From: an uncultured Burkholderiales bacterium
GTDB taxonomy: Bacteria > Pseudomonadota > Gammaproteobacteria > Burkholderiales > Burkholderiaceae_C
DNA: 64,000 nucleotides
Reading direction: 5' to 3'
Assembly (NCBI GenBank): GCA_903932865.1
Contig: CAIZHQ010000016.1
Coordinates: 372,001 to 436,000, forward strand
Within the stretch, counting starts at the first letter, position 1; each line of letters opens with the position of its first letter. A program made the translations under genes and the position numbers. The notes below the pieces were generated by a model. That model was not told the DNA's origin. It saw nothing but the letters and a program-made list of their open reading frames with translations, and did no database searches. This document shows, in pieces, positions 22,849 through 51,093 of this stretch.

Positions 22849-24168
22849 ATGAACCAGGACCTGACCCTTTTGAACTGCGCTGCCCTGCAGCAAGCCTACG
22901 GCCAGGGGCTGTGTGACCCTGTGGCCGTGACCCGGGCGCACTTGGCACGGATTGCGCAGCGCAACCCGGCGCTGCAGGCCTTTGTGCATGTGTGCGAAGA
23001 CTTGGCCTTGCAGCAGGCACAGGCCAGTGCGCAGCGATGGGCCAGTGGGCAGCCGTTGGGGCCGCTCGATGGGGTGGTGATGGCCCTGAAGGACAACATC
23101 GACGTCGTCGGCATGCCGTGCACCGCTGGTACAGCGGCCTATGCGCAGCGCATGCCGGTGCACGATGCACCTGTTTACCAACGCTTGCGCGATGCCGGCC
23201 TGGTGTTGTTGGGCAAGCTCAACATGCACGAAGCCGCCTTGGGGGCCACCACCGACAACCCTGTCTATGGCCGCTGCATGAATCCCTTGCGCGAGGGCTA
23301 CACGCCGGGCGGCTCCAGCGGTGGTTCGGCCGCTGCCGTGGCCGATCACCTGTGCACCATCGCCATGGGGACCGACACCATGGGTTCGGTCCGCATTCCG
23401 GCCGCTTACTGCGGTGTGATGGGCATGATCCCCACACGCACGCGCTTGCCCACGGACGGCATAGTGCCCTTGAGCCCCACCTTGGATGTGGCAGGGCCTC
23501 TGGCGCGCAGTGGACACGATCTGGCGCAAGTGATGGCCTGTCTCTTGGGCGTGAGCCTGGCGACCGCGTCTGACGCCAACGCCTGGCGTGGTTTGCGCGT
23601 GGGCATCTTGCCGCAGACGAGCGAGGTGGCGATGGCCCCGGACGTGCAAGCGGCTTGGCAGGCCACGCAACAGCGCTTGCAAGCGCGAGGCGCACTGCTC
23701 AAATCCGTGGCTTTGCCTGACTGGTCTCCTGCCCGCAACCGCTTGCATGCCTTGCTCATGAGCGAGTGGGAAGGGGCTGATTACTGGTTGGATGCCTTGG
23801 GGCCCGAGTTGCCGGGGTTGAGCGTTGGCTTGCAAAAAATGCTGCGTTACGGGGCGGGTTTACCGCTGCCCAAGCGGCAGGGCAGCCAGGCCGCCATTGA
23901 CGGCTTGCGTGCGCAAGCCGGGCTTTTGTTCGCAGACATCGATGTTTTGCTGTTGCCCACCACGCCGCACACCAGCTTTGCCCACACCGAAGCCGCGCCT
24001 GCCAGCCAGGCCGACTGGGCGTGCCTGGCCAACCTGTTGGGAGCGCCCGCTTTGTCCTTTCCTTGCCCGAGCGATGGTTTGCCGGTGTCGTGCCAGTTGT
24101 TGGCCGCTCCCGGTCAGGACGAGCGCTTGCTCGCGCTGGCTTGTGCGCTCGACACGTTTTGGGATTGA
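22849..24168 (+). CDS. Amidase-signature family hydrolase
   Basis: 439-residue amidase-signature enzyme (GatA/indoleacetamide-hydrolase type). The Ser-cisSer-Lys triad is readable: Lys in VVMALKDNIDV (about residue 82), cis-Ser in TPGGSSGGSAAAVA, nucleophile Ser in GTDTMGSVRIPAAYC, where Met replaces the usual Gly of the DTGGS motif. The C-terminal tail is shorter than in GatA and no gatB/gatC is nearby, so a small-amide hydrolase is likelier than tRNA amidotransferase. Its 3' end overlaps the convergent MmgE/PrpD gene by 55 bp. Start has no evident Shine-Dalgarno, only the heptamer repeat. Confidence 0.85.
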   Translation: MNQDLTLLNCAALQQAYGQGLCDPVAVTRAHLARIAQRNPALQAFVHVCEDLALQQAQASAQRWASGQPLGPLDGVVMALKDNIDVVGMPCTAGTAAYAQRMPVHDAPVYQRLRDAGLVLLGKLNMHEAALGATTDNPVYGRCMNPLREGYTPGGSSGGSAAAVADHLCTIAMGTDTMGSVRIPAAYCGVMGMIPTRTRLPTDGIVPLSPTLDVAGPLARSGHDLAQVMACLLGVSLATASDANAWRGLRVGILPQTSEVAMAPDVQAAWQATQQRLQARGALLKSVALPDWSPARNRLHALLMSEWEGADYWLDALGPELPGLSVGLQKMLRYGAGLPLPKRQGSQAAIDGLRAQAGLLFADIDVLLLPTTPHTSFAHTEAAPASQADWACLANLLGAPALSFPCPSDGLPVSCQLLAAPGQDERLLALACALDTFWD

Positions 24169-25535
24169 TGCCAGCTTTGCAAGCTGCTCCACAAACGCGC
24201 GGGTGAATCATCCTCAGCCAGCGCAAGCGCTGCGCTGATGAGATGCCGAGCCTGCCAATCTATCCAGCCACTGGCCTGCAGCAGTTGCGTGGCTTTGGCC
24301 ATCACCTGGTCCGGGCTCAAGGGGTTTTCCGGATCGCCTAAAACGTTGACCACTTCACTGCTGTGTTGGGTGCCGTTTGCCATTTGCAGCTGCAAATGGG
24401 CACCAAAACTTTGCGGGTACGCCTGCTCTTGTGCTGGCCCGCACACCAGCGTGATGCATTCGCGCAGTGCGCTGCAGATCGGGTCCAACAGCGCCTCTGG
24501 CGCGGTGGCCTCCAGCCCGAAATCGCCATGGCACAGGGCCCAGGCCACGCCATGCTGCAAACTGAATTTGCCTTGCAAGGGCGTTTGCGGGCAAGGCTGG
24601 TCAGCAAACGACAGTGCCACCGCGTAGGTGTCAAGATGCATGTGTTCGATCTGCCCGGGATCGATCCCTTGCGCGTGTAACTGCAAAGCGCATTCGATGG
24701 CAGGGTGCACATGCCTGCACGCAGGCCAGGGCTTGAAGCTGACTTCGTGCACGCGCCAGGCGCGATCGGGTGGGGTCTGCAGCAGTGCGCGCGCCCTGGC
24801 CGCGTCCAGATTGCCTCCGGTGGCCTTCAACCAGCCCAAAGGCCCTTCTAGGATGGACAAAGGCCCGGTCATGCCAGCTGCCGCAAGGTCTGCTGCGACC
24901 AAGCCTGCTTGGGCGCTGTGGCCTGTGGCCAGTTGCTTGGCCAAGCCCGGCTCAAGGCGGCATTGCCAGACGCCCGCAGATTGCATGCCTGCCAAGGCCA
25001 AGGCGTGTTGCGTGTGCGTAGGGTCCAGACCCAGCAAGCGGGCGCAGGCCATGGCACTGGCAAAGACCCCGGTCGTCGCGGTGCTGTACCACTGGCCGTA
25101 ATGGCTGGGCCCGCTGAGCAGGCCGAGCAAGATGCCGGTTTCATAGCCCACCACCACCGCATCGAGCAATGCCTCGGCGGTGGTGTTTTCGCGTTGGGCC
25201 ATGGCCAGCACGGCTGGAATGACCGTGTCGCCTGCATGCACCACGGCTTCGCGGTGCACATCGTCCATTTCATGGCTGCTGCCCAGGCTACCGTTCCAGC
25301 GGGCGGCCTCTGCTGCCTGCAAGCTGCTGTGTCCACAGACCCAAATGGGACCGGGCGCCTGCTTAGCGGCCCATCGCCGCAGTACCGCGCCCAACTCGGT
25401 CGTTTGCCCCAAATGCGCACAAGCCATCCAGTCGATCAGCTGCAGTGCCGCACGTTGGCGGTCATGCAGGCGAATGGGTCTTCGCAAAGCCGCCACCAGC
25501 CATTCGCTCCAAGGTGTTGGGTGTGCGAGTGGCAT
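24114..25535 (-). CDS. MmgE/PrpD family protein (set A)
   Basis: 473-residue member of the MmgE/PrpD family, which includes 2-methylcitrate dehydratase, cis-aconitate decarboxylase and epimerases acting on carboxylic acids. The active-site region SSHEMDDVHREAVVHAG matches the family His/Asp cluster, and GYETGILLG and FKPWPACRHVHPAIE follow as expected. ATG at 25535 shares one base with the upstream hydratase stop (TGATG); the track's GTG at 25538 is one codon earlier. Last gene of the nine-gene minus-strand operon. Substrate unknown; a paralogue is at 35565-36908. Confidence 0.85.
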   Translation of the reverse strand: MPLAHPTPWSEWLVAALRRPIRLHDRQRAALQLIDWMACAHLGQTTELGAVLRRWAAKQAPGPIWVCGHSSLQAAEAARWNGSLGSSHEMDDVHREAVVHAGDTVIPAVLAMAQRENTTAEALLDAVVVGYETGILLGLLSGPSHYGQWYSTATTGVFASAMACARLLGLDPTHTQHALALAGMQSAGVWQCRLEPGLAKQLATGHSAQAGLVAADLAAAGMTGPLSILEGPLGWLKATGGNLDAARARALLQTPPDRAWRVHEVSFKPWPACRHVHPAIECALQLHAQGIDPGQIEHMHLDTYAVALSFADQPCPQTPLQGKFSLQHGVAWALCHGDFGLEATAPEALLDPICSALRECITLVCGPAQEQAYPQSFGAHLQLQMANGTQHSSEVVNVLGDPENPLSPDQVMAKATQLLQASGWIDWQARHLISAALALAEDDSPARLWSSLQSWHQSQNVSSAQASASKRSS

Positions 25536-26335
25536 CACAGGCCCTTGAATCGGGGCGGTCTTTTTTCATTGAAGGCCAGCACGCCCTCGCGCCGATCTTC
25601 GGTGTCCACCAGCTGGTTGTAGGCCTCCACCTCAAACCGGTAAGCTGTGCGCAATTCCATTTGGCTCCCGTACCGAATGGACTTTTTGACCTGCCTAACC
25701 GACAGCGGTGCATTGCGCGCCAAGGTTTGGGCCGTGTGCAGTGTTTCGCTCAGCAACTGTCCGGGTTCGAGGGTTTGATTGAGCAAGCCCCACTCCAACG
25801 CTTGCAGGGCAGTGAAGGCTTGCCCCGTCATGATGAGTTCCTTGGCGCGGCGCTCGCCGATGGCACGGGGCAGGTTTTGCGTGCCGCCCATGCCGGGCAT
25901 GATGCCCAAGGTGACTTCAGGCATGGCAAAGCGCGCGCTGTTGCTGGCATACATGAAATCGCAGCACAAGGCCAATTCCAGTCCGCCGCCATAAGCATGG
26001 CCGTTGACGGCAGCGATCACGGGCAGCGGCAAATCCACCAAGGCCCAGGACATGCGTTCAAAGATCTCATGCTGGTGTGTCCATTGCGCACGCGTCATGC
26101 CCTTGCGCTCTTTCAGGTCACCCCCCGCACAGAAAATTGTCGAACCCGCGCCGGTCAACACCACACAGCGCACGCCCTGCGCATCGTCGGTCAGGCGCAG
26201 CCACAGGTCCAGCAGTTCCTGTCCCATGCGTGTGTTGATGGCGTTGCCCACATCGGGGCGGTTCAAGGTGACTTGCAGGACGCCATCGGCGTGGGACTCC
26301 AGCAAGAGAGTTTCAGGGGCTTGCAGCGGGTCCAT
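25535..26335 (-). CDS. Enoyl-CoA hydratase/isomerase family protein (set A)
   Basis: 266-residue crotonase-fold protein. The oxyanion region FCAGGDLKE and the core GHAYGGGLELALCCD are present, and both Glu of classical hydratases are kept: the Glu of GGGLE and that of RFAMPEVTLG. It may therefore be a true 2-enoyl-CoA hydratase. ATG at 26335 (MDPLQAPETL) chosen; the longer track frame begins inside the SDR gene. It lies 22 bp after the SDR and is coupled to MmgE/PrpD. Probably acts on a CoA thioester made by the CaiB-type transferase at the head of the operon. Confidence 0.85.
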   Translation of the reverse strand: MDPLQAPETLLLESHADGVLQVTLNRPDVGNAINTRMGQELLDLWLRLTDDAQGVRCVVLTGAGSTIFCAGGDLKERKGMTRAQWTHQHEIFERMSWALVDLPLPVIAAVNGHAYGGGLELALCCDFMYASNSARFAMPEVTLGIMPGMGGTQNLPRAIGERRAKELIMTGQAFTALQALEWGLLNQTLEPGQLLSETLHTAQTLARNAPLSVRQVKKSIRYGSQMELRTAYRFEVEAYNQLVDTEDRREGVLAFNEKRPPRFKGL

Positions 26336-26357
26336 GGGTATTGAGACGAAGCAAGGG

Positions 26358-27134
26358 TCAATTCGGCGCGTACTGTTGTCCACCGTCGACGTGCAACACG
26401 GTGCCACTCAAGTAGCCGCAAACGGGTGACGCGCAATGCACGGCAAGGCGTGCAATTTCGTCGGGCTCGGCCAAACGGCCAAAAGGCAATTTCTGCGTCA
26501 TCTCCAACCAGCGTGAAGCGTCCCCCAGCTTGCTCGCAGCTTGCTGCCTGAGCACGCCTTCAATGCGGTCACTGCGCGTGGGCGAGGGGTTGATGCCGAA
26601 CACCCTCACACCCTTGCGCACGCTGCCGGCGCCAACGCCCTGTGTGAACGAAATCAGTGCGCCGTTGGCTGCCGAGCCGCAAATGTATTCGTAGCGTGGT
26701 GCAGCCCCGGCCATGCCGATGATGTTGCAAATGACACCTTGCCCGCGTGACTCCATGGCCCCCAGATACAACCGGGTGAGGTTGATGTAACTGAACAATT
26801 TGAGCTCCCAAGAGGCGCGCCATGCGTCTTCGGCAATGTCGTGGAGGCTGCCGCCCGGGATGGCACCTGCGTTGTTGACCAGGATGTCTGCCGCAGGAAA
26901 CAGATTGAACAAAGCGCGGTCAGAGCCAGGTTGTGACAAATCGATCTCGGCGATGGCGGGAGCTGGCAGGCCTTCTTTTGCAAAGGCAACCAAGGCGGCG
27001 TCCAGGTTGCTGCGTTGGCGTGACACCAAGACCGGCTTGGCGCCTTCGCGTGCAAAGTTCAGGGCAATGGCCAAGCCAATGCCTTTGGAGCCACCGGTCA
27101 CGATGACTTGTTTTTGATCGAGTTGGAGGTTCAT
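26358..27134 (-). CDS. SDR-family oxidoreductase with altered YxxxK site (set A)
   Basis: 258-residue Rossmann protein of the short-chain dehydrogenase family. Cofactor motif VTGGSKGIG and VNNAGAIPGG are intact and the C-terminal SGTVLHVDGGQQYAPN is typical. The catalytic YxxxK position reads GSAAN (in YICGSAANGAL): Tyr is Gly and Lys is Asn, with a Tyr three residues further upstream. A paralogue in set B has the same GxxxN pattern. It may use a shifted Tyr or catalyse a different reaction. 90-bp gap to the upstream deacetylase gene. Confidence 0.85.
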   Translation of the reverse strand: MNLQLDQKQVIVTGGSKGIGLAIALNFAREGAKPVLVSRQRSNLDAALVAFAKEGLPAPAIAEIDLSQPGSDRALFNLFPAADILVNNAGAIPGGSLHDIAEDAWRASWELKLFSYINLTRLYLGAMESRGQGVICNIIGMAGAAPRYEYICGSAANGALISFTQGVGAGSVRKGVRVFGINPSPTRSDRIEGVLRQQAASKLGDASRWLEMTQKLPFGRLAEPDEIARLAVHCASPVCGYLSGTVLHVDGGQQYAPN

Positions 27135-27224
27135 GCGTGAGGCCTGCGAATGGACCAGTCACTGGACTTGCCCGGGGTTTGGAGAGATCCAAGGGATTTT
27201 TGTGGGCGCACAGGGCGACGCAGA

Positions 27225-28109
27225 TCAAGGACTTGGCGGCGGCACTTGCGTGGTGTACCAGTCGGCGATTTGCCCGCCGTTCATGAAGCACACCTGGGGG
27301 GACTTCATCAGCAAGTCCAGCATGCGCTCAAAACTGGCAAAGCGGTGGGGCACGCCAATCAAGTGCGGGTGCAGACCGATGGCCAGCACACGGGGGTGTG
27401 TGGCCGCTTCGCGCTCAAACAAGGCGAGAGTGCGGGCCAGGCGTTCGTACATTTCGTCGCTGGTGTGTTTCTCGATGGCGTAAACGATCGAGTCGTTGAT
27501 TTCGAGGTTGTAGGGCATGGCCAGCAAAGGGCCGTTGCGCGTTTGCATCCAGCCAGGCACATCGTCCACCACCCAGTCAAAAACATAGTCTACGCCCTGC
27601 TTTTTCAGCAGTTCGGGGGTGTCGTGTGTTTCGCGCAAGCCGGGGCTCAACCAGCCTCTGGGGCGTTGGCCCGTGAAGCGTTCGATCATGTCCAGGCTCA
27701 TGGCGATCAAGGATTCTTCGGACTCGCCTTGGTTGTGGTTCAGACTTTTTTGGTGCACCCCATGGCCAATGAACTCCCAGCCTGCTTCGTGCATGGCTTG
27801 CGCAGCATGTGGGTAAGCGTTGATGACCCCGGCGTTGAAACTGGTAGAGGCGGGCAAACCCCGATCCTGAATGGCCCGAAGGATACGCGGCAAGCCAGCT
27901 CGCATGCCGTAATCGGCCCAGCTGAAGTTGGGCACATCGGGCACCGTCTCTTTGCCGTGTGGGGGCGTGATGATGGTGCGCGGCATGCTCGACTCGAACT
28001 GCCAGTGCTCCACGTTCACCACCAAGTGCACCATGATGGCGCCTTGTGGCGCAGCCTTCAATGCTGGCCCATCGTTGGAAAAGCGGTACGGAATGCGGGG
28101 GTTGGCCAT
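27225..28109 (-). CDS. Polysaccharide deacetylase family hydrolase, PuuE-like
   Basis: 294-residue NodB-fold protein of the branch containing allantoinase PuuE and cyclic-imide hydrolases rather than chitin deacetylases. Readable segments: VHLVVNVEHWQFE (first metal motif region, Asp replaced), FNAGVINAYP, WEFIGHGVHQKSLNH (His metal motif), PRGWLSPGLRETHDTPELL. No signal peptide. ATG at 28109 (MANPRIPYRF) starts one base after the ATPase stop, so it is translated with the importer. A role in opening a cyclic amide or imide brought in by that importer is inference. Confidence 0.75.
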   Translation of the reverse strand: MANPRIPYRFSNDGPALKAAPQGAIMVHLVVNVEHWQFESSMPRTIITPPHGKETVPDVPNFSWADYGMRAGLPRILRAIQDRGLPASTSFNAGVINAYPHAAQAMHEAGWEFIGHGVHQKSLNHNQGESEESLIAMSLDMIERFTGQRPRGWLSPGLRETHDTPELLKKQGVDYVFDWVVDDVPGWMQTRNGPLLAMPYNLEINDSIVYAIEKHTSDEMYERLARTLALFEREAATHPRVLAIGLHPHLIGVPHRFASFERMLDLLMKSPQVCFMNGGQIADWYTTQVPPPSP

Positions 28110-28110
28110 G

Positions 28111-28860
28111 TCAGTGTCGAATGAGGTTGAGGATGTCGAGCTTGAGCGAGGCAAATGTTTCGCTGGCGGTGTCGGCCACGGTGCGTGGGCGCGCCAGCGG
28201 CACGGTGATCTTGGTCTGGATGCGGCCCGGGCGGGCAGACATCACGTAAATCGTGCTGGCCAAAAAAATCGCCTCATCGATGTCGTGCGTGACAAAAATG
28301 ATGGTGGGCTTGAGCTGCTGCCACACATTGAGAAGCAACTCTTGCATGGTCAAACGGGTTTGCGCGTCCAGTGCGCCAAACGGCTCGTCCATCAGCAGCA
28401 CGCGCGAGCCCAGGGTCAAAATGCGGGCAATGCCCACACGTTGGCGCATGCCGCCCGACAACTGCACGGGCAAATGGTTCTTGAAGTCGCTCAGGCCCAC
28501 GATCTTGAGCATTTCATGGGCGCGGTCTTCGTAGTCGCTGCGCGCCAGGCCCTGTACCTTGGGACCGAAGATCACGTTGTCCCAGACACTCAGCCAGGGA
28601 AACAATGCGGCTTCTTGAAAAACCACGCCACGGTCGGGCCCAGGTGCGTTGACCACGCTCCCATTGACCAACAACTGGCCCGCTGTAGGCTGCTCAAACC
28701 CCGCAATGAGGTTCAGCAAGGTGGATTTGCCGCAGCCTGAAGGCCCAAGTAAAGCCACCAATTCCCCCGGGGCGACCTGCAATTGGATGTCTTCCAGGGC
28801 TTTGACGGGCGTGCTGCCCGGGTAGGTTTTGTAAAGGTTCTGGATGGAAATATCGGACAT
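28111..28860 (-). CDS. ABC transporter ATP-binding protein, nitrate/sulfonate/taurine type
   Basis: 249-residue ATPase of the SsuB/TauB family. Walker A LLGPSGCGKSTLLNL, Q-loop VVFQEAALFPWL, signature LSGGMRQRVGIARIL, Walker B VLLMDEPFGALDAQT, and switch His in FVTHDIDEA. It energises the permease and binding protein encoded just upstream in the operon. Nine-bp gap to the permease. Confidence 0.93.
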   Translation of the reverse strand: MSDISIQNLYKTYPGSTPVKALEDIQLQVAPGELVALLGPSGCGKSTLLNLIAGFEQPTAGQLLVNGSVVNAPGPDRGVVFQEAALFPWLSVWDNVIFGPKVQGLARSDYEDRAHEMLKIVGLSDFKNHLPVQLSGGMRQRVGIARILTLGSRVLLMDEPFGALDAQTRLTMQELLLNVWQQLKPTIIFVTHDIDEAIFLASTIYVMSARPGRIQTKITVPLARPRTVADTASETFASLKLDILNLIRH

Positions 28861-28869
28861 GTTTTCTTC

Positions 28870-29676
28870 TCAATGGCTTTGCAGCATGCGCCAGACCAAA
28901 ACCCTGCTTTCAATGAAAACGATCAAACGATCACTCAAGAATCCCATGATGCCGATCGACACCATGTCGGCCAGCACAATGTCCATGCGCCCCACGTAGT
29001 AGGCGTCCCATAGCACGTACCCCAGACCTGACTTGACGGCCACCATTTCCGAGACGATCACGGCGGTCCACGAAATGCCCAGGCCAATGCGCAAGCCTGT
29101 GAAGATGGAGGGCATGGCCGCGGGGAGAACAACCCGGTACAGCAATTGCTTGCGACTGGCACCCATCATCAGGGCCGCGCGCACCAGGTTGCGCTCCACA
29201 TCGCGCGCACCCTGCGTGGTGTTGACCACGATGGCATAAAAACCACCCAGGAAAATCAGAAAAATGGCACCCATGTCCCGAATGCCAAACAGCGCGATCG
29301 AAAACGGCAACCAGGCCGTGATCGGGATAGGCCGCAAGCTCTGAATGAGCGGGTCAAAAAGCTGCTGAACCATACGGCTCCAACCGATCAGCAAACCCAG
29401 AGGGACACCGATCAGAGCCGCCAAGAAAAAGCCCTGCGCCACCCGCATCGAAGAGTACTGGACATTAGACACCCAAGAGCCCAGGTACGGATTCAGGCCT
29501 AGGCCGGGTGAGCCAAAAATCCAGCCGTGCCAGCCTTCCAAAACCAGCATGGGGGTGGGCAGGATGCCGGCCATGCCTGGCCTGCTGCCTGCGACCTGCC
29601 AGATGACCAGAACCACCGCTGGCACCAACAGGCCAAGCACTGTCCGACGAAGGGTATCGAGAGAAGCGTTAGCCAT
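28870..29676 (-). CDS. ABC transporter permease, SsuC/TauC type
   Basis: 268-residue inner-membrane protein with about six hydrophobic segments (VLGLLVPAVVLVIWQVAGS first) and the cytoplasmic EAA-like loop AALMMGASRKQLLYRVVLPAAMPS that contacts the ATPase. Gene order binding protein, permease, ATPase with gaps of 15 and 9 bp shows one importer. Confidence 0.92.
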   Translation of the reverse strand: MANASLDTLRRTVLGLLVPAVVLVIWQVAGSRPGMAGILPTPMLVLEGWHGWIFGSPGLGLNPYLGSWVSNVQYSSMRVAQGFFLAALIGVPLGLLIGWSRMVQQLFDPLIQSLRPIPITAWLPFSIALFGIRDMGAIFLIFLGGFYAIVVNTTQGARDVERNLVRAALMMGASRKQLLYRVVLPAAMPSIFTGLRIGLGISWTAVIVSEMVAVKSGLGYVLWDAYYVGRMDIVLADMVSIGIMGFLSDRLIVFIESRVLVWRMLQSH

Positions 29677-29691
29677 GAAGGTGCTGCCTGC

Positions 29692-30669
29692 TTACTTTTT
29701 GAGTTCAACGACCATGGAGTCGTCGTACAGAGCGGCGGCTTCCTTGGTCACGTCTTTTTGCACGATGCCTTGCTTGAAGGCCGCTTCAGCCAAGCGCGAA
29801 ACTTGGTCTTTGGTCAGGACACCACCGAGTTTGATGATCTTGGCCGACTCTTTGGTCACGTTCAGTGGCAAGCCGGTGTACTTGGAATAGGCATCGGCAA
29901 AGACATCCTTGTTCTTGCTCAGGGTTTCTTCGGCCTTGAGGTAAGCCCACAGAAAGCGGCGCACCAGTTCCTTCTTTTGGGTCATGGCTTCGCCAGAGGC
30001 AGCCAGCATGCCCAGCTCGGCACCCACAGCGCGGGACTGGCTGTATTCCAGTTTTTGCGAGAAGTAGGCATCGCCTTCGGCCACAGCCTGGGACTCAAAG
30101 GGCTCCCATAGCACCATGGCATCGATGTCGCCACGTTTCATCGCCTGCACAAAAGCAGTGCCGCCACCTTGCACGTTCACGGGGGTGAACGAGTTGTAGG
30201 GGATGTTTCTCTCGATCAAGGTCATGGCCCACTGGAACCAGACGGCTGAGCCAGGGGCAATGGCAATCTTTTTGCCTGCAATGTCACCCCAGTCATCGAT
30301 CTTCACGCCTTTGCGTACCACCAGGTATTTGGGCGAGCTGCCCACACCCGTGAGGCCCACCAGGTTTTTGCTGCCTTGTCCAGCCACGATGGCCAAGTCA
30401 CCCGCCCCCACGGCCGAGACGTCCACCGAGTTGGACAGCAGCGCGGTGCGGGCATCGGCGTAGCGCACGAATTCTGCGCGCTTGACTTCGATGTTCATTT
30501 TCTTGAGTTCTTCTTCGACCAAGAGCATGGGTGAGAGGTGACCCACTTTGACATAGCCCACCGTGAGTGTGGCTTTGTCTTTGAGGGGGGCGGGCGCAGG
30601 ACCCAAAGCCAAAGCCATGCCGGTGGAGACCGACAGCGCAAAGCCGATGAGGGAAGTCCAAAGTTTCAT
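29692..30669 (-). CDS. ABC transporter substrate-binding protein, NMT1/TauA type
   Basis: 325-residue periplasmic protein with an N-terminal signal peptide (MKLWTSLIGFALSVSTGMALA) and the NMT1/SsuA-like fold (VGYVKVGHLSPMLLVEEEL, DVSAVGAGDLAIVAGQG, AMVLWEPFESQAVAEG). ATG at 30669 follows CAGGAGTATTCAG. The family imports nitrogen- or sulfur-containing small molecules (taurine, sulfonates, pyrimidine precursors); which one is unknown. Track start at 30750 lies in the upstream hydratase gene. Confidence 0.9.
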   Translation of the reverse strand: MKLWTSLIGFALSVSTGMALALGPAPAPLKDKATLTVGYVKVGHLSPMLLVEEELKKMNIEVKRAEFVRYADARTALLSNSVDVSAVGAGDLAIVAGQGSKNLVGLTGVGSSPKYLVVRKGVKIDDWGDIAGKKIAIAPGSAVWFQWAMTLIERNIPYNSFTPVNVQGGGTAFVQAMKRGDIDAMVLWEPFESQAVAEGDAYFSQKLEYSQSRAVGAELGMLAASGEAMTQKKELVRRFLWAYLKAEETLSKNKDVFADAYSKYTGLPLNVTKESAKIIKLGGVLTKDQVSRLAEAAFKQGIVQKDVTKEAAALYDDSMVVELKK

Positions 30670-30691
30670 CTGAATACTCCTGGGTTGGTGG

Positions 30692-31468
30692 TTATTGGCC
30701 GGTGAATTGAGGGGACCGCTTTTGTGCGAAAGCCAGCCGGCCTTCCGCATAATCGTTGCTTTTGAAACATCCGTCGATGGCGGTTTTCACTGACGTCATG
30801 TCTTCTTCATCTTCTGCAAGTGCCACCAAAGTTCTCTTGGCGGCCTGAACGGTCAAGGGCGCATTGGTGGCGATCTCTTGGGCCAATGCGGTGCAGTGCG
30901 CAAACACATCTTCGACCACAGCAAGGACCATGCCCATGACCTGTGCGCTTTGCGCGTCATAGACCCGTGCGGTGTAGAAAGCCTCGGCCGTGGCCTGAGG
31001 CCCCAAGTTGTTCACAATGCTTTTCATGTTTTCGATGTCGTAGCCCAGTCCTAAGCGGGCCGCAGGCATGCGAAAACGCGAATGCGGTGCTGCGTAACGC
31101 ATGTCGCAACTCAAAGCCAGGCCCAGCCCGCCGCCATAGCAAATGCCACTGATGGCCGCAATCACCGGCACCCTGCAGCGAAAAATGGCCTGTTGCGTGC
31201 GTTTGACCATGTCGTTGTAATTCGCCACCGAAGCTTCGGAGTTGCGCTGGGTTTCGAACTCGCTGATGTTGGCCCCAGAAACAAAGGACTTGTCACCCGC
31301 GCCGCGCAGCACACACACGCGCACTTCGGGGTTACGGTTCATCTCGTCAAAAGCCGCCAGCAAGGAGGTCCACATGGACAAACTCATCGCGTTGTGCCGG
31401 GAGACGTCGTCGATGGTGACCTGCGCCACATGGCCTTGCACAAGCAGATCGATTCGGCCTTCGCTCAT
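30692..31468 (-). CDS. Enoyl-CoA hydratase/isomerase family protein lacking both catalytic Glu
   Basis: 258-residue crotonase-fold protein. The core GICYGGGLGLALSCD has Gly where hydratases carry the first catalytic Glu, and FRMPAARLG has Ala at the second, so simple water addition is unlikely; other crotonase reactions (decarboxylation, hydrolysis, ring cleavage) or a lost activity remain open. Oxyanion region SFVSGANISEFE is present. ATGA overlap with the CoA-transferase and 22 bp before the binding protein. Confidence 0.85.
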   Translation of the reverse strand: MSEGRIDLLVQGHVAQVTIDDVSRHNAMSLSMWTSLLAAFDEMNRNPEVRVCVLRGAGDKSFVSGANISEFETQRNSEASVANYNDMVKRTQQAIFRCRVPVIAAISGICYGGGLGLALSCDMRYAAPHSRFRMPAARLGLGYDIENMKSIVNNLGPQATAEAFYTARVYDAQSAQVMGMVLAVVEDVFAHCTALAQEIATNAPLTVQAAKRTLVALAEDEEDMTSVKTAIDGCFKSNDYAEGRLAFAQKRSPQFTGQ

Positions 31469-32661
31469 ACAACGCCCCGGGCATGGAAGCCCTCAATATC
31501 GGTGGCCGAAAACCCCAGGTCCGCCAGCACTTCGTCGGTGTGCTCGCCCCAGCCCGGGGCAGGTGCGACCACCTTGGACGGCGTGCGGCTGAGCACCACC
31601 GGCTGGGTGATGAAATGCATGTCTTTGCCAAACTGCGTGGGCAGCGTGGCGGTCACCTGCAGGTGCTTGACCTGTTCATCCTCAAACACCTGGGGAACGG
31701 TATACACAGGGCCTGCGGGCACGCCCGCTTGGTTCAGCAGCGACACCCACTGGTGCACGGTTTTCTTGGGGAACTCTTGCGCAATCAACTGATTCAAGCG
31801 CGCCCTGTTTTTGACACGCAGAGGCTCGGTCACGAATTCCGGGTCTTGGTACCACTCGGGCTTTTGCAACACTTCGCAAAAGCGCTTCCAGTTGCCCTCG
31901 CCCGATGCGCCCAGGTTGAAGCAGCCATCGCTGGCCTCGAACAAGCCCATGGGCGAGCTGGTCGGGTGGTTGTTGCCCACCTGCACGGGCACATCGTTGT
32001 CATTCAGGTAGCGGGCCATTTGGAAATCCATCATGGCAATTTGCGAATGCAGCAAGGAGCTTTGAACCCACTGACCCTGGCCCGAGGTCTCGCGTTCGAT
32101 CAAGGCGACCAAAATGCCGATGGCGCAGTACAACCCAGCACTCAGGTCGGCCACCGCCAAGCCTGCCCGAATGGGGCCGTGCTCTGGCTCACCCGTCACG
32201 CTCATCAAGCCGCCCATGCCCTGAATGATCTGGTCAAACCCGGGCCGCCAGGCGTAGGGGCCATCCTGACCAAAGCCGGAAATGCTGGCCAGGATGATGC
32301 GCGGGTTGATGGCCTTGAGCGACTCGTAATCCAGACCCAGGCGGTCCTTGACATCGGGACGCCAGTTTTCCACCACCACATCCGCCTGGGCCATCATCCG
32401 CTTGAGGATGTCCATGGCCCCCTCTTTCTTGAGGTTCAACGTCATCGAGCGTTTGTTGCGGTTGATGTTCTGAAAGTCGCCGCCTTTGCGGTTGGCGGCG
32501 AACATGGCTTCGTTCGGGTCAACCCCTTCGGGTGGCTCGACGCGCACCACATCCGCCCCAAAATCGGTCAATATGCGCACGCAATTGGGGCCGGCGCGGA
32601 CGCGGGACAAGTCGATCACCTTGAAACGTGACAGCGCGATAGAAGCTTGGATTTTGGCCAT
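31465..32661 (-). CDS. CaiB/BaiF family CoA-transferase
   Basis: 398-residue family III CoA-transferase. N-terminal VIDLSRVRAGPNCVRILTDFGADVVRVEPP, NRNKRSMTLNLK, the catalytic Asp region AVADLSAGLYCAIG, and the C-terminal PAGPVYTVPQVFEDEQV. Such enzymes move CoA between a donor thioester and a carboxylic acid, so it probably activates the pathway substrate. ATG at 32661 (MAKIQASIAL); the track's 32700 start is upstream in the promoter region. First gene of the nine-gene operon, divergent from the GntR regulator. Confidence 0.9.
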   Translation of the reverse strand: MAKIQASIALSRFKVIDLSRVRAGPNCVRILTDFGADVVRVEPPEGVDPNEAMFAANRKGGDFQNINRNKRSMTLNLKKEGAMDILKRMMAQADVVVENWRPDVKDRLGLDYESLKAINPRIILASISGFGQDGPYAWRPGFDQIIQGMGGLMSVTGEPEHGPIRAGLAVADLSAGLYCAIGILVALIERETSGQGQWVQSSLLHSQIAMMDFQMARYLNDNDVPVQVGNNHPTSSPMGLFEASDGCFNLGASGEGNWKRFCEVLQKPEWYQDPEFVTEPLRVKNRARLNQLIAQEFPKKTVHQWVSLLNQAGVPAGPVYTVPQVFEDEQVKHLQVTATLPTQFGKDMHFITQPVVLSRTPSKVVAPAPGWGEHTDEVLADLGFSATDIEGFHARGVV

Positions 32662-32702
32662 AAATTGTGTATTGGAAGACTTTAAAAACAAAGTCGCCAT
32701 CC

Positions 32703-32745
32703 ATAAATATATTTATAGCTCATATCGAGATGCATAGCAATATGA
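32703..32745. promoter_or_regulatory. Divergent promoter region with palindromes (GntR operator candidate)
   Basis: The 117-bp AT-rich gap between the CoA-transferase and gntR starts holds a perfect 14-bp palindrome ATAAATATATTTAT (32703-32716) and a TCATAT-N14-ATATGA inverted repeat (32720-32745). FCD-type GntR regulators bind short inverted repeats in such divergent gaps. Assignment is inferred from position. Confidence 0.5.
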
Positions 32746-32778
32746 CAAAATATCAGTGTTTGCCCTAAGAAACCCCCC

Positions 32779-33444
32779 ATGAAAGTCAGCGACCAAATCC
32801 GTTTGCACTTGGAAGAAGCCATCTCCAAGGGCGATTTGTTGCCCGGGGATGCCATCGACGAAAGTGCTTTGGCCGAACAATTTGGTGTGTCAAAAACACC
32901 CATTCGCGAAGCCCTCATTCAATTGCAGGCCCAGGGCTGGGTCAGCAACATGCCCCGGGGCGGCAGCACCGTGGCCAAGATGAACTTGCAGCAATTGCTC
33001 AGCCTGTGGGAGTTGTTGGCCGAGCTGGAGGCCGTCGCCGTGCGCCTGGCCTGCGAGCGCATGAGCGAAGAAGACCTGCAAAAACTGATGGCTCTGCACG
33101 AAGCAAGCCGCCCGGTGGCGGCGGCCGAAGACTTGCAGGGCTGGCAAAAGATCAACTTGGCGTTTCACGAGCTCATTTACCAAGGCACACGCAACCCGTT
33201 TTTGCGGCAAGAGGTCCTGCGCATCCGTTTTCGGACAGGCGTTTATCGGCGCCACGCCTTTGGCGCTTTGGGCCGTTTGCAAGCATCCTTTGACCAGCAT
33301 GAATTGATCGTGCAGGCCCTCAAGCTGCGCAATGCGGAGGGCGCCGTCGAATGCATGCGCGACCACATGCGACCTGGGCGTGATGCCAAAAGCCTCAATG
33401 ACTTCATCTTGAACCTGCCCACAGACCTGTTGGCATCCCAGTAA
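32779..33444 (+). CDS. GntR-family regulator with FCD ligand-binding domain
   Basis: 221 residues. Winged-helix domain (residues about 1-70) with ESALAEQFGVSKTPIREALIQLQ, the GntR recognition signature, then an all-helical FCD domain (FHELIYQGTRNPFLRQ, MRDHMRPG) that usually binds a carboxylate through a metal. Divergent from the CoA-transferase operon, so it most likely represses that operon and itself until the pathway acid binds. ATG at 32779. Confidence 0.92.
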   Translation: MKVSDQIRLHLEEAISKGDLLPGDAIDESALAEQFGVSKTPIREALIQLQAQGWVSNMPRGGSTVAKMNLQQLLSLWELLAELEAVAVRLACERMSEEDLQKLMALHEASRPVAAAEDLQGWQKINLAFHELIYQGTRNPFLRQEVLRIRFRTGVYRRHAFGALGRLQASFDQHELIVQALKLRNAEGAVECMRDHMRPGRDAKSLNDFILNLPTDLLASQ

Positions 33445-33480: not shown

Positions 33481-34323
33481 ATGACCTTTCTTGACATGCT
33501 GCGCGCCGCTGAGCGCCAAAACGGCTCCATGCTCTGCGTGGGCCTGGACCCCGAACCCACCAAGTTTCCTTCGCGCTACAAGGGTGACTCCAACAAGATT
33601 TACGACTTTTGCGCGGCCATCGTGGACGCCACCGCCGATCTGGTCAGCAGCTTCAAACCCCAAATTGCCTACTTTGCCGCGCACCGTGCCGAAGGCCAGC
33701 TCGAACGCCTGATGGAGCACATGCGCCGCGTGGCCCCGCATGTGCCGATCATCCTGGACGCCAAGCGCGGCGACATTGGCAGCACCGCCGAGCAATACGC
33801 TAAAGAAGCTTTTGAACGCTACGGCGCCGACGCGGTGACCCTGTCGCCCTTCATGGGTTGGGACTCGGTGGCGCCCTACCTCCAGTACGAAGGCAAAGGT
33901 GCGTTCTTGTTGTGCCGCACCTCCAACCCCGGCGGTGACGATTTGCAAAACCAACGTTTGGCCTCGGTCGAGGGTCAACCTTTGTTGTACGAACACGTTG
34001 CCAAACTGGCCCAAGGCCCTTGGAATCTGAATGGCCAGTTGGGTCTGGTGGTGGGCGCGACTTATCCTGCTGAGATTGAACGCGTGCGGCAACTGGCCCC
34101 CACGCTCCCGCTGCTGATCCCCGGTGTGGGGGCACAAGGCGGTGATGCCGTGGCCACCGTCAAGGCCGGTTGGCGCGCCAATGCCGACGGCTCCAGCGCC
34201 GGATCGGTCATCGTCAACTCCTCGCGCGCCGTGCTCTATGCCTCTGGCGGTGAAGACTTTGCCACAGCGGCCCGCAAGGTGGCCATGCAGACAAGGGACA
34301 CGCTGGAAGCGGCGAAGCTGTAA
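33481..34323 (+). CDS. pyrF: Orotidine 5'-phosphate decarboxylase, type 2
   Basis: 280-residue (beta/alpha)8 enzyme converting OMP to UMP in pyrimidine synthesis. The length and the active-site segment [21 protein letters not shown] (Lys/Asp charge network) identify the longer type 2 subgroup. N-terminal [13 protein letters not shown] and C-terminal [10 protein letters not shown] bind phosphate. It stands alone between two catabolic sets and appears unrelated to them. Confidence 0.95.
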
Positions 34324-34540: not shown

Positions 34541-35521
34541 ATGGCATCCAAACTGACACGATATGTTTGCGCAGTGGTGTGCGCTTTGGCAGGCACTTGG
34601 GCCCAGGCGCAAAGCGTTGGCGCATACCCCAACCGTCCGATCAAACTCATCGTGACGGTGCCGCCTGGGGGCGCTGCTGACTTCATCGCCAGATTGCTGG
34701 CAGCCAAGTTGTCCACCTCGATGGGGCAACCTGTTGTCGTGGAAAACAAGGCGGGCGCCAGCGGCTCATTGGCCAGCGATTTCGTCGCCAAGTCAGCGCC
34801 CGACGGCTACACCTTGCTGCAAAACTCGATCACAACGCATGGCATTGGCCCCCATTTGATGGCCAAGTTGCCCTACGACCCCATCACATCGTTTGCACCC
34901 ATCACCATGCTGGCAAGCTTGCCGTTGATCATGACCATCAACGCTGAATTGAAAGCACAAACGCTGCCTGAGTTTGTTGCGCTAGCCAAGCAAAGGCCTG
35001 GTAAGTTGGCCTTCGCCTCGTCGGGCAACGGTGGTGCACCGCACATGGCTGGGGAGTTGTTCACCGCTGCGACAGCGATCGACATGATTCATGCGCCTTA
35101 CCGTGGCAGCGGCCCCGCTGTGGCCGACCTCGTCGGTGGACAAGTCCAAGTCATGTTTGATGGAGCCCCGTCTTTGCTGCCCCACATCACGAGCGGCAAG
35201 ATCCGGCCCGTTGCCGCTGCCAGCCCTCGACGGAACCCCCTGCTGCCTAACACGCCCACCTTTGCTGAGTTGGGTTTTCCTTCGGTCAATGTCGCACTTT
35301 GGTACGGCTTGATGGCGCCAGCTGGCACACCGCCTGACATCATTGCCCGCTTGAACCGCGAAGTGAATCAGGCGCTCAAATCAAGTGACGTTCTCGAGCG
35401 CTTTGCGTCCCAAGGAACAGAGGCATTGGGTGGAACGCCAGAGCAAGCGGCCAGCTACGTGCGGCAAGAACTTGACCGCTGGGGCCCGGTGGTGAAAAAA
35501 GCCGGCATCGTTGCCAACTGA
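34541..35521 (+). CDS. Tripartite tricarboxylate (Bug/TctC) family solute-binding protein
   Basis: 326-residue periplasmic binding protein with signal peptide (MASKLTRYVCAVVCALAGTWAQA). Bug signatures: YPNRPIKLIVTVPPGGAADFIAR, VVVENKAGASG, APDGYTLL, HAPYRGSGPAVADLVGGQVQVMF and PTFAELGF. Binds an organic acid. No tctA or tctB lies in the window, so it is an orphan that must share a transporter or act as a sensor. ATG at 34541 follows a weak purine stretch. First gene of set B. Confidence 0.92.
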   Translation: MASKLTRYVCAVVCALAGTWAQAQSVGAYPNRPIKLIVTVPPGGAADFIARLLAAKLSTSMGQPVVVENKAGASGSLASDFVAKSAPDGYTLLQNSITTHGIGPHLMAKLPYDPITSFAPITMLASLPLIMTINAELKAQTLPEFVALAKQRPGKLAFASSGNGGAPHMAGELFTAATAIDMIHAPYRGSGPAVADLVGGQVQVMFDGAPSLLPHITSGKIRPVAAASPRRNPLLPNTPTFAELGFPSVNVALWYGLMAPAGTPPDIIARLNREVNQALKSSDVLERFASQGTEALGGTPEQAASYVRQELDRWGPVVKKAGIVAN

Positions 35522-35564
35522 GCATGAACGCAGGCATGTTTTCACGGGTGTTGCGGCCTCTTTC

Positions 35565-36908
35565 ATGAAGCTGCTGGATGGCTCATCTCCTACGCATGCG
35601 CTTGCCCAGTGGGCAGTTGATTCGAAGTGGGCTGATGTGGATGCGGCCACCCAATCCTCGGCGGCTTCATCATGGATGAATTGGTTCGCCTGTGCCCTCG
35701 GTGGTGCAGGTGATCCCGCTTTGGACAGGCTGCTCTTGGCTCTAGCGCCCTTTGGCCGCGGCGATGCCCCACTGATCGGCCGCGCTGAAAAGTTTGACCC
35801 TGCAAACATTGCATTGCTTCACGCTTTTTCGTCGAACATCCTTGACTACGACGACACGCATTGGCCGACAGGAATTCATCCTGCCGGCACGGTGGCATCG
35901 GCCCTGGTGGCCTGGGCCAGTCAGACGGTCGTGAGCGGCCAGGATTTCTTGCATGCGTTTTTGTTGGGTATGGAGGTGGAGTGCCGAATCGGTCTGGCCG
36001 TCTCGCCGGGCCACTACGAACGGGGTTGGCACATCACGGCCACTTGCGGTGTCTTTGGCGCTGCGGTTGCTGTGGGACGACTGATGCGACTGAGCCCCCT
36101 GCAAATGGCTTGGGCGATGGGTCATGCAGCCACACAGTCGAGCGGCTTGGTGGCCAGTCTGGGCAGCATGGCGAAAAGCTTGAACATTGCCCATGCGGCA
36201 CGCAACGGCTTGGTGTCAGCGCAGCTTGCAAGGCATGGCATCACGGCCAACGACCGGGTGCTGGAGGCGCGTTTCGGATTCTCCGAGGTCATGGGGTCAC
36301 GACCGCTGGATGCTGTCCTGTGCGAAGGCTTGGGACAACATTGGGTCGCGACACACAATACGTTCAAGCCCTACCCCTGCGGCTTTTTGCTGCAACCCAC
36401 ATTGGACGCCTGCCTGAGCTTGGCCGACGACCCGATCCATGCCGGGGACGAAATTGAACACATCATGGTCACGGTTCATCCTTTGTCGCAAATACGCGCA
36501 GATCGACCCCACCCGGCGGATGGACTTGAATCCAAGCTCAGCCTTCAGCATGCTGTGGCCGTGGCCATGACCTGGGGGCATGCCGGTGTGCGCGCCTTTA
36601 CAGACGGCGCTGTGAATGATCTGGCCGTGCAAGACTGCCGTCAAAAGGTCAAGATCGTGGCAGACGAACACCTGAGCACGGAAGAAGCTCGGGTGGTCAT
36701 TCACCTGCACAGCGGGCGTTTGATCACCCGCGAGATGCAGGGGACACCTGCACCCATGACCCCTGAGGCACTGGAGAGCAAGTTTCGCGAGCTCGCCACC
36801 TGGGGGGTGCCGCATTGCAACGCCGACGAACTTTGGGTGGCCCTGGCCACGTTTCCTCAAATGGTCAATGCCGCTGACCTGATCGCCATGACCACGCCGC
36901 AATCTTGA
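35565..36908 (+). CDS. MmgE/PrpD family protein (set B)
   Basis: 447 residues from ATG 35565 (MKLLDGSSPT); a TTG at 35511 overlapping the upstream stop would give 465. MmgE/PrpD signatures are SSNILDYDDTHWPTGIHPAG, which holds the active-site Asp/His cluster, GMEVECRIGLAV, and FKPYPCGFLLQPTLDA. Related in family, not closely in sequence by eye, to the set A protein at 24114. Follows the Bug protein and precedes an SDR and an enoyl-CoA hydratase, so it probably acts on an acid bound by that Bug protein. Confidence 0.85.
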   Translation: MKLLDGSSPTHALAQWAVDSKWADVDAATQSSAASSWMNWFACALGGAGDPALDRLLLALAPFGRGDAPLIGRAEKFDPANIALLHAFSSNILDYDDTHWPTGIHPAGTVASALVAWASQTVVSGQDFLHAFLLGMEVECRIGLAVSPGHYERGWHITATCGVFGAAVAVGRLMRLSPLQMAWAMGHAATQSSGLVASLGSMAKSLNIAHAARNGLVSAQLARHGITANDRVLEARFGFSEVMGSRPLDAVLCEGLGQHWVATHNTFKPYPCGFLLQPTLDACLSLADDPIHAGDEIEHIMVTVHPLSQIRADRPHPADGLESKLSLQHAVAVAMTWGHAGVRAFTDGAVNDLAVQDCRQKVKIVADEHLSTEEARVVIHLHSGRLITREMQGTPAPMTPEALESKFRELATWGVPHCNADELWVALATFPQMVNAADLIAMTTPQS

Positions 36909-36945
36909 TGGCATCCCTTTTTAATCACTCGAACCCCGCAAAAAA

Positions 36946-37740
36946 ATGAACCTCCATCTTCAAAACAAGCACATCCTCATCACGGGCGGTAGTAAGGGCA
37001 TTGGGTTGGCATGCGCCAGCGCATTTTTACAAGAGGGCGCGCATGTGACCTTGGTGGCGCGCAATTCCGACACCTTGGCAGCGGCGCAACGAGAGTTGAG
37101 TCTGGCAGCACCCGCAGGTTGCAAAATTCATGTGGTGTCAGCAGATCTGACACAAGCTGACGCTGCCCTGGCCGCCCTTGCCGAGGCAGAAGGCTTGGGG
37201 GGGCCGATCGATGTGCTGGTCAATTCGGCCGGCGCTGCCAAAAAGACGCCAGCCGCAGACCTGAAACCGCAGGACTGGCAAAACGCCATGCAGTCTAAGT
37301 TTTTCAGTTACATCAACATGATGGATCCCGTCATCAAAAAAATGGCGGCGCGTGGGCAGGGCGCCATCGTCAATGTCGTTGGCAACGGCGGCAAGGTGGC
37401 CAGCCCTGTGCACCTGCCGGGCGGTGCAGCCAACGCCGCCTTGATGTTGGCGACCGCTGGTCTGGCCAACGCGTATGCCGGGCAAGGCGTTCGGGTCAAT
37501 GCGGTCAATCCCGGCAGCACTTTCACTCAGCGGTTGGAGACCGCCATAGCGGCAGACGCCAAGAGTCGGCTTATATCGCCCGAGACGGCCTTGTCGCAAC
37601 TCACCGAAAAGCTGCCCATGGGGCGGATCGCCCAACCCGCGGAGGTGGCAGCTGCGGTCGTGTTTTTGGCGTCTAGCCAAGCGAGTTACATCACTGGTGC
37701 CAATTTGTTGATGGATGGCGCGTTGGTGCCTTTGATCTGA
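36946..37740 (+). CDS. SDR-family oxidoreductase with altered YxxxK site (set B)
   Basis: 264-residue Rossmann protein. ITGGSKGIGLACAS cofactor loop and VNSAGAAKKTP (NSAG instead of NNAG). The YxxxK position reads GGAAN (in HLPGGAANAALML), i.e. GxxxN, as in the set A SDR, and here no nearby Tyr is visible. C-terminal YITGANLLMDGALVPLI is typical. Starts 37 bp after MmgE/PrpD. Confidence 0.85.
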   Translation: MNLHLQNKHILITGGSKGIGLACASAFLQEGAHVTLVARNSDTLAAAQRELSLAAPAGCKIHVVSADLTQADAALAALAEAEGLGGPIDVLVNSAGAAKKTPAADLKPQDWQNAMQSKFFSYINMMDPVIKKMAARGQGAIVNVVGNGGKVASPVHLPGGAANAALMLATAGLANAYAGQGVRVNAVNPGSTFTQRLETAIAADAKSRLISPETALSQLTEKLPMGRIAQPAEVAAAVVFLASSQASYITGANLLMDGALVPLI

Positions 37741-37908
37741 GCGCGCCTGTTTTGGCAGCGCCATTTTTTGCCATCGGCTTGTCCGGTTGGGCAGACCATC
37801 GCGCTGGCCTTCAACGGGTTCAGCCAAGCGCCAGCAGGGGATGCGCCGCGTCGCGCTCCAAACGCGTGACCCGTTGCAAGCAGCCAAGCCCCCAAAAAGG
37901 AGACCCAC

Positions 37909-38673
37909 ATGTATGAACATTTGATTGTCAAAGAACAAGGTCGCTGGGTTGAAGTTCATTTGAACCGACCCCAAGTTCGGCATGCCCTGTCGCGTGCCCT
38001 GATGCGCGAGATCACTGCCGTGGCGCGCGCCCTGAGCGATCGCACAGACATTGACGTGGTCATCCTCACGGGCGATGCGCGGTGCTTTTCGGCGGGTGCT
38101 GATTTGAACGACGCGCAAGCTTGGGCCGACGACAGCTTGTCCACGGTGCAGCGGCGCGACATGGCGGGCACGGGTTTTCGCATGTGCAAGGCTTGGGAAG
38201 AAATGCCGCAAATCACCATCGCCGCCATCGAAGGCTATGCGGTGGGCGGTGGGCTGGCGCTGTCGTTGGCCTGCGACTGGCGTGTGCTGGCGCAAGACGC
38301 CTTTGTGTCCTTGCCCGAAATCGCCTTGGGCATTCCGCTCACCTGGGGCACCATCCCCCGCTTGGTCAACCTGCTGGGCCCAGCCAAGGCCAAGCGCCTG
38401 ACCATCTTGTGCGAGCGCATCGCTGCACCTGAAGCGCTGAGCCTTGGACTGGTCGACTACGTCAGTGACACAGGCCAAGCCATGGTCCGCGCACAAGCCC
38501 TGGCCGCGCAAACCCTGGCCCAACCCGCCGCTACCGTGCGCATGAGCAAAGAGTCGGTCAACGCCGCCGCCACAGCCCTGAACCACGCCACCTCGTACAT
38601 GGCACACGACCAGATCGCCTTGGCCGCATCCAGCCCCGAGTCACGCGCAGCGCGGGGTCAGGCTTTGCGCTGA
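37909..38673 (+). CDS. Enoyl-CoA hydratase/isomerase family protein (set B)
   Basis: 254-residue crotonase-fold protein. Oxyanion region CFSAGADLNDA; core GYAVGGGLALSLACD has Ala in place of the first catalytic Glu, while the second is kept (VSLPEIALGIPL). The one-Glu pattern is seen in isomerase-like members. ATG at 37909 follows AAAAAGGAGACCCAC, an excellent Shine-Dalgarno. 168 bp separate it from the SDR, so it may have its own promoter. Confidence 0.85.
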   Translation: MYEHLIVKEQGRWVEVHLNRPQVRHALSRALMREITAVARALSDRTDIDVVILTGDARCFSAGADLNDAQAWADDSLSTVQRRDMAGTGFRMCKAWEEMPQITIAAIEGYAVGGGLALSLACDWRVLAQDAFVSLPEIALGIPLTWGTIPRLVNLLGPAKAKRLTILCERIAAPEALSLGLVDYVSDTGQAMVRAQALAAQTLAQPAATVRMSKESVNAAATALNHATSYMAHDQIALAASSPESRAARGQALR

Positions 38674-50183: not shown

Positions 50184-50242
50184 GAATCTGTACCGATGTC
50201 GTCGGGGTGGACGCCTGACCCAACTTGGCTTGGCCAGGGGTA

Positions 50243-50255
50243 TCACGAATTGTGA
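50243..50255. promoter_or_regulatory. T-N11-A LysR-type box TCACGAATTGTGA
   Basis: Near-palindromic 13-mer TCACGAATTGTGA between the LysR gene and the SDR/tcu genes, 82 bp before the SDR start. It fits the T-N11-A rule for LysR regulators with dyad ends TCAC/GTGA. Not proof of binding. Confidence 0.45.
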
Positions 50256-50337
50256 CGGCCCCATATCTGCCAGGGGCTGCGCAAGGGTCTGGGGTCAGGC
50301 TAAAGTCAAGTGGTTAATCTCTTTTTCAAAGATACCC

Positions 50338-51093
50338 ATGGACTTGCAACTCAAAAACAAAACCGCCTTGGTCACCGGCGCCAGCGTGGGCATCGGGCGC
50401 GGCATTGCCAAAGCCCTGGCTGCTGAAGGCGTGCGTGTGGCCGTGTCGGCGCGTCGCGTCGACAAGCTCTATGAGCTGGCTGCCGAGATCGTGGCGGCAG
50501 GTGGCCATGCGCCCGTGGTCATTGCGTCAGACCTATACGCCGAAGACGCGGCCAAACGCTTGGCCGAGGCGGCCCTGGCGGGTTTGGGCAGCGTGGACAT
50601 TTTGGTGAACAACGCTGGCGGCTCGCGCAGTTTCAAGGAGTTGCATGTGAGCGAAGAGGCCTGGCAAGAAGCCATCACCTTGAACTTTCACCGCCCACGC
50701 CAAGTGGCCGATGCCCTGATTGATCAGATGATTGAACGCAAGTGGGGCCGCATCATCAACATCACGGGCAAGAGTGAACCTGAGCACACCAACGGTGCGT
50801 TTTGCGCCAAAGCGGGCATGCACAGCTGGGCCAAAGGTTTGTCGCGCATGGTGGGCAAGCACGGGGTCACCGTGAACTGTGTGCCACCAGGGCGTATCCA
50901 TTCCGAGCAAATTTTTCGCAATTACACGCCCGAATACCGCCAGTGGCAGTGCGACAACGAGATTCCCATGGGCCGCTACGGTGAGCCCGAAGACATGGCC
51001 AATTTGGTCACTTTTTTGGCATCCCCCTTGGCCAGTTACATCACCGGCGCGGTGATTCCTGTCGACGGTGGTTTGCGCAAGTACCAGTTTTGA
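50338..51093 (+). CDS. SDR-family oxidoreductase, catalytic Tyr absent (tcu cluster)
   Basis: 251-residue Rossmann protein. TGASVGIGRGIAKAL and VNNAGGSRSF are normal; C-terminal YITGAVIPVDGGLRKYQF is typical. At the YxxxK site the sequence is AFCAK (in NGAFCAKAGMHSW): Lys is kept but Tyr is Ala. So it may not be a classical alcohol dehydrogenase. ATG at 50338 (MDLQLKNKTALV). Its stop lies 32 bp before tcuA; co-transcribed. Confidence 0.85.
   Translation: MDLQLKNKTALVTGASVGIGRGIAKALAAEGVRVAVSARRVDKLYELAAEIVAAGGHAPVVIASDLYAEDAAKRLAEAALAGLGSVDILVNNAGGSRSFKELHVSEEAWQEAITLNFHRPRQVADALIDQMIERKWGRIINITGKSEPEHTNGAFCAKAGMHSWAKGLSRMVGKHGVTVNCVPPGRIHSEQIFRNYTPEYRQWQCDNEIPMGRYGEPEDMANLVTFLASPLASYITGAVIPVDGGLRKYQF

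Follow-up and report, generated by a model that had tools for sequence, protein, structure and literature searches.

Two catabolic gene sets flanking pyrF in a Burkholderiales genome were probably assembled separately and share a clade of GxxxN short-chain dehydrogenases

The window, by which we mean the whole stretch of 64,000 nucleotides that was analysed, contains two groups of catabolic genes separated by pyrF. We call the group before pyrF set A and the group behind it set B; the abbreviations MmgE, SDR and ECH stand for MmgE/PrpD-family proteins, short-chain dehydrogenases and crotonase-fold proteins, respectively.

22849..24168, + strand: amidase at the end of set A (PF01425)
24114..25538, - strand: MmgE_A, MmgE/PrpD-family protein of set A (PF03972 and PF19305)
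25535..26335, - strand: ECH_A, enoyl-CoA hydratase of set A (PF00378; both catalytic Glu)
26358..27134, - strand: SDR_A, GxxxN SDR of set A (PRK06125, above cut-off at 324 bits)
27225..28154, - strand: PuuE-like hydrolase of set A with polysaccharide-deacetylase fold (PF01522)
28111..30750, - strand: ABC transporter of set A, with NMT1/THI5-like binding protein (by Pfam), permease and ATPase (both read from the sequence)
30692..31468, - strand: ECH2_A, crotonase-fold protein of set A (PF00378)
31465..32700, - strand: CaiB/BaiF CoA-transferase of set A (PF02515)
32779..33444, + strand: GntR/FCD regulator, divergent from set A (PF00392 and PF07729; conserved beside set A in the relatives G773 and G777)
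33481..34323, + strand: pyrF, orotidine 5'-phosphate decarboxylase (PF00215), the fixed point between sets A and B
34541..35521, + strand: Bug/TctC-type solute-binding protein of set B, 326 aa (PF03401, 225 bits, residues 49-322)
35511..36908, + strand: MmgE_B, MmgE/PrpD-family protein, 465 aa (PF03972 and PF19305)
36946..37740, + strand: SDR_B, GxxxN SDR, 264 aa (PRK06125-like; by motif and tree)
37833..37908, + strand: stretch just before ECH_B, probably left over from a pyrF 3' end (alignment to the relative G753)
37909..38673, + strand: ECH_B, crotonase-fold protein, 254 aa (PF00378; residues at the catalytic positions)

An earlier note on this DNA had described the four set B genes and, on the opposite strand across pyrF, the same three enzyme families in set A; coordinates, strands and families are all as it claimed, with set B on plus and set A on minus. 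In set B the Bug and MmgE genes overlap, 37 bp separate MmgE from SDR, and 168 bp lie between SDR and ECH; the TctC domain places the Bug protein among the Bug/TctC solute-binding proteins. Set A reads CaiB, ECH2, ABC transporter, PuuE-like hydrolase, SDR, ECH and MmgE along the minus strand. Since the whole genome holds only five MmgE/PrpD genes, 33 ECH-fold matches and three strong GxxxN SDRs, two neighbourhoods that each combine MmgE and SDR exceed what scattering would produce. The note offered two origins for this repetition, an ancient duplication of the trio or the repeated recruitment of one trio.

Three identical families within 15 kb, with both SDRs drawn from the GxxxN clade, are what one MmgE-SDR-ECH trio copied across pyrF and then diverged might leave behind. 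However, the members of each pair are distant (33% identity over 279 aa for MmgE, 38% for SDR, 32% over 207 aa for ECH), and the trio runs SDR-ECH-MmgE in set A but MmgE-SDR-ECH in set B. Neither mutually closest pairs nor a common gene order, the marks of a duplicated cluster, are found. On a quick tree with some long branches, MmgE_A and MmgE_B fall into separate clades, and a constraint that joins them lowers the log-likelihood by 111 units (p-AU 0.0002). The closest relative of ECH_A is a paralogue from the same genome on contig C22 (66% identity); the two make up a supported clade that excludes ECH_B. Three distant homologues from the bacterial family form a small separate group with ECH_B, and a joint clade of ECH_A and ECH_B was not formally rejected (p 0.48) on a tree whose backbone is unresolved. 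The two SDRs belong to different subclades, and parts of set B occur apart from each other in G753 and G777. A duplication is thus very improbable. Set B is probably no copy of set A; the two appear to have been assembled separately around pyrF, as patchworks from the same large catabolic families. The C22 paralogue itself sits in a Bug-CaiB-ECH-AcDH-MmgE cluster (L029, 1529-8080).

The active sites also separate the two sets. MmgE_A and MmgE_B both contain the N-terminal and C-terminal MmgE/PrpD domains (PF03972 and PF19305) above cut-off, as do family members such as 2-methylcitrate dehydratase, cis-aconitate decarboxylase and iminodisuccinate epimerase. In the established numbering of the cis-aconitate decarboxylase active site, MmgE_B retains the main residues of that enzyme, D93, T97, H103, H159, K207 and K272. 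MmgE_A instead has E at D93 and Y at H159, substitutions found throughout its clade, whereas D93 and H159 are fixed in the clade of MmgE_B. The nearest solved structures to MmgE_B are the B. subtilis MmgE (7bra, named IRG1) and iminodisuccinate epimerase. Neither protein resembles the 2-methylcitrate dehydratase PrpD closely, with scores of 31.4 bits (MmgE_B) and 33.1 bits (MmgE_A) against an equivalog cut-off of 575 bits. Close plasmid-borne relatives of MmgE_B in Variovorax SRS16 and Paraburkholderia adjoin ordinary YxxxK SDRs.

Two glutamates with well-established catalytic roles mark the enoyl-CoA hydratases among the crotonases. ECH_A has both, while ECH_B, like its relatives, has Ala at the first position and Glu at the second, and ECH2_A has Gly and Ala, so that only ECH_A reads as a two-glutamate hydratase. 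Because the MmgE and ECH active sites differ by clade, sets A and B are, judged from these residues, unlikely to run the same reactions despite the matching family names.

The SDR pair tells a different part of the story. As the earlier note had observed, both proteins carry a GxxxN site, in which Gly replaces the usual Tyr and Asn the usual Lys; the catalytic Ser is Gly as well. The motif residues are K112, Y116, G140, G153 and N157 in SDR_A and K118, Y122, G146, G159 and N163 in SDR_B. Both have Lys and Asn in exchanged places (K112/N157 and K118/N163) and lack the Ser/Tyr pair at its customary positions, which is the Lys-Tyr-Asn pattern of AerF-like and BacG-like enzymes and also that of their clade as a whole. 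In a FastTree phylogeny of 141 SDRs, the 91 rows with swapped Lys and Asn fall essentially all into one clade of 94 rows (support 99), which contains an A-type subclade of 33 rows (95) and a B-type subclade of 56 rows (99); SDR_A and SDR_B lie deep inside different subclades. Within the working alignment, Lys112, Asn157 and both Gly are invariant (SDR_A numbering) and Tyr116 is nearly so. In some members the triad has T, C, G, S or F in place of Tyr, a point against the reading proposed below. The site had been called unusual, which it is not inside its own clade: GxxxN is the rule within this large group. As the motif is clade-wide (about 91 rows), its presence in both sets shows a shared subfamily and not a recent link.

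GxxxN-type SDRs were found in 63 of 401 sampled genomes of the bacterial family, and a class-wide search added few further cases. A profile scan of the genome contigs with the SDR alignment, which had picked up generic SDR motifs, returned mostly ordinary SDRs and about five loci of the K...N type. At the places sampled in genomes of the family, B-type SDRs showed no conserved neighbour except Bug genes, which abound in this family.

The second origin offered by the note, one three-step module of MmgE, GxxxN SDR and hydratase assembled repeatedly, can be weighed by its recurrence. All three occur together in set A and its orthologues, in L326 and on plasmid pJE1, where the order is CaiB-AcDH-ECH-ECH-...-MmgE-GxxxN SDR. 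We sampled 70 GxxxN-SDR places from genomes of the family (20 A-type and 50 B-type) and counted MmgE genes within 3 kb. Five places had one, four of them A-type and one B-type, with an orthologous pair among the five; the density of MmgE genes predicts 0.8-1.1 (Poisson P 0.001-0.006). MmgE and ECH together, however, accompany the SDR at only three of the 20 A-type places and at none of the 50 B-type places. Azospirillum p3 has an amidase-CaiB-ECH-ABC transporter-PuuE-like hydrolase-SDR cluster in nearly the same order as set A, but without ECH_A and MmgE_A, the genes that had suggested a trio. Set A is a recurring operon, and because this core lacks both genes the trio looks like an add-on even there. 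In set B, ECH_B lacks one of the hydratase glutamates and adjoins pyrF in G753, where Bug, MmgE and SDR are absent, and for this reason recruitment of a whole trio fails for set B. Such a module is therefore improbable, although the idea stands for the smaller pair of MmgE and GxxxN SDR, given the five places and pJE1. Correspondingly, the refuting test named in the note gave a divided answer: two of the three protein pairs fall into separate subfamilies, while the co-occurrence of MmgE and GxxxN SDR lies above background. The likeness of the two sets is likely to reflect a shared draw on large catabolic families together with a real tendency of MmgE/PrpD genes to adjoin GxxxN SDRs, mostly of the A-type. 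A literature search for MmgE/PrpD with SDR, ECH or CaiB, or for plasmid pJE1, found no report.

The set A core (22849-33444; L189: amidase, CaiB, ECH, ABC transporter, PuuE-like hydrolase, SDR) is found again in Azospirillum and in several genomes of the family, and it resembles an amide or imide degradation operon. Relatives of set A (L385, L390, L098, L315 and L319) have an acyl-CoA dehydrogenase gene beside the SDR, which is absent from the window (26335-26358) and from G773.

Relatives from the same genus allow the steps around pyrF to be retraced, with pyrF itself 94-98% identical across G753, G773 and G777. G773 is fully collinear from the amidase through set A and pyrF to set B, at 82-99% protein identity. 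G753 has lpxC, an EamA gene oriented opposite to that of the window, and pyrF, followed 12 bp after the pyrF stop by ECH_B (96% identical); neither set A nor Bug-MmgE-SDR is present at this locus, and the G753 genome has no GxxxN SDR at the cut-off. Downstream of ECH_B, G753 encodes a Cas1-like protein (L393, 8098-9114). G777 has set A next to pyrF, here with an additional acyl-CoA dehydrogenase gene, and its genome yielded no ECH_B; a different contig of G777 ends with the Bug-MmgE-SDR genes (81/61/78% identity), whose neighbours are an IclR regulator and a LigXa-like Rieske oxygenase. The Bug protein is 99% identical and in the same place in G773, and 81% identical and in a different place in G777. 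Across 201 genomes of the family, the closest homologues of the set B genes do not occur together.

Since G753 has pyrF-ECH_B without Bug-MmgE-SDR and G777 has Bug-MmgE-SDR without ECH_B, set B reads as an inserted cassette joined to an older ECH gene. A short trace of the insertion may survive: window positions 37833-37908, upstream of ECH_B, align with the G753 pyrF tail and the gap behind it (blastn block from 37843), with a local alignment score of 70; leaving out the RBS and start region lowers it to 48, while the best of 300 shuffles reached 41. We regard this stretch, which is short and only modestly above the shuffles, as a probable relic of a pyrF 3' end that would mark the right edge of the Bug-MmgE-SDR insertion.

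That the complete arrangement of set A, pyrF and set B was ancestral in the genus, with parts lost in G753, G777 and others, would agree with the collinearity of G773, and if G753 had lost the cassette through recombination, the pattern would look much the same. The probable pyrF tail before ECH_B in the window speaks against this, as do the different genes that accompany Bug-MmgE-SDR in G777 and a search of 19 same-genus genomes, among them the source of the window, in which only three had ECH_B; ancestry of the whole arrangement is quite improbable. Gene content, the separate ancestry of the sets, their arrangement in relatives and the residues of the active sites are observed here; insertion rather than loss is what we infer from them. 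Separate assembly, in which a Bug-MmgE-SDR cassette was inserted between pyrF and the older crotonase-fold gene ECH_B, is the origin we favour with good confidence, and set A would have landed on the other side of pyrF as a separate catabolic operon with its amidase. A duplicated pyrF tail was also considered as a mobile-element attachment site, and the end of pyrF in the window and the stretch that precedes ECH_B, compared directly, showed no clear repeat. As that stretch matches the G753 pyrF end better than the window's own, we claim no site-specific integration.

Two clusters whose genes bear the same family names may be neither copies of each other nor alike in chemistry; here trees, active sites and a close relative without either set distinguish them. 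The locus is an example of ordinary patchwork evolution, in which the neglected GxxxN SDR clade common to both sets is the one point worth following. This widespread clade with an altered active site is usually annotated as ordinary dehydrogenases and may reduce carbon-carbon double bonds. A comparable SDR with the catalytic residues K113/Y117/N158 is BacG/YwfH from bacilysin biosynthesis (3U49).

For SDR_A and SDR_B the best or near-best match in sequence and fold is AerF from aeruginosin biosynthesis (6JH7/6JHA/6JHB), with the Burkholderia SDRs 5IDX/5IDY slightly higher for the fold of the SDR_B model (AF2, pLDDT 90.9). AerF shares the SDR fold; in it, too, Lys replaces the usual Asn, Tyr follows four residues later and Asn replaces the usual Lys. 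It differs in that Ser rather than Gly takes the place of the usual Tyr (SxxxN), in its identity of about 37% over the fold alignment, and in its biosynthetic context, whereas SDR_A and SDR_B belong to catabolic clusters. The best family model for both is PRK06125 / NF004779, which names no specific function; SDR_A scores above its curated cut-off (324 against 261 bits) and SDR_B below it (225 bits). PMC13256417 cites AerF as a double-bond reductase, which uses NADPH to reduce a conjugated C=C bond.

In set B, the Bug protein would bind a carboxylic acid and hand it to a tripartite transporter whose genes lie elsewhere. MmgE_B would dehydrate or isomerise that acid into a compound with a conjugated C=C bond, and SDR_B would use NADPH to reduce this bond, Lys-Tyr-Asn taking the place of Ser-Tyr-Lys; ECH_B may serve the same pathway or another. 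Such a pair of dehydratase and ene-reductase is our best guess at function and a tentative one, in which reaction order, cofactor and substrate are extrapolated. In a broader and rather unlikely version, many uncharacterised catabolic operons of proteobacteria would contain MmgE/PrpD and a Lys-Tyr-Asn SDR as a recurring deoxygenation module of two enzymes: dehydration by MmgE would turn a hydroxy-polycarboxylic acid (or the corresponding CoA ester) into a conjugated olefin, which the Lys/Asn-swapped SDR would reduce.

Two further observations concern these protein families. The 6.2-Mb genome of G784, from the same order, gave 71 MmgE/PrpD matches, whereas most relatives with any such match have 1-7. 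At 50230-51093 the window encodes a third SDR, in which Asn and Lys are retained but the usual Ser and Tyr are lost (N...G...G...K).
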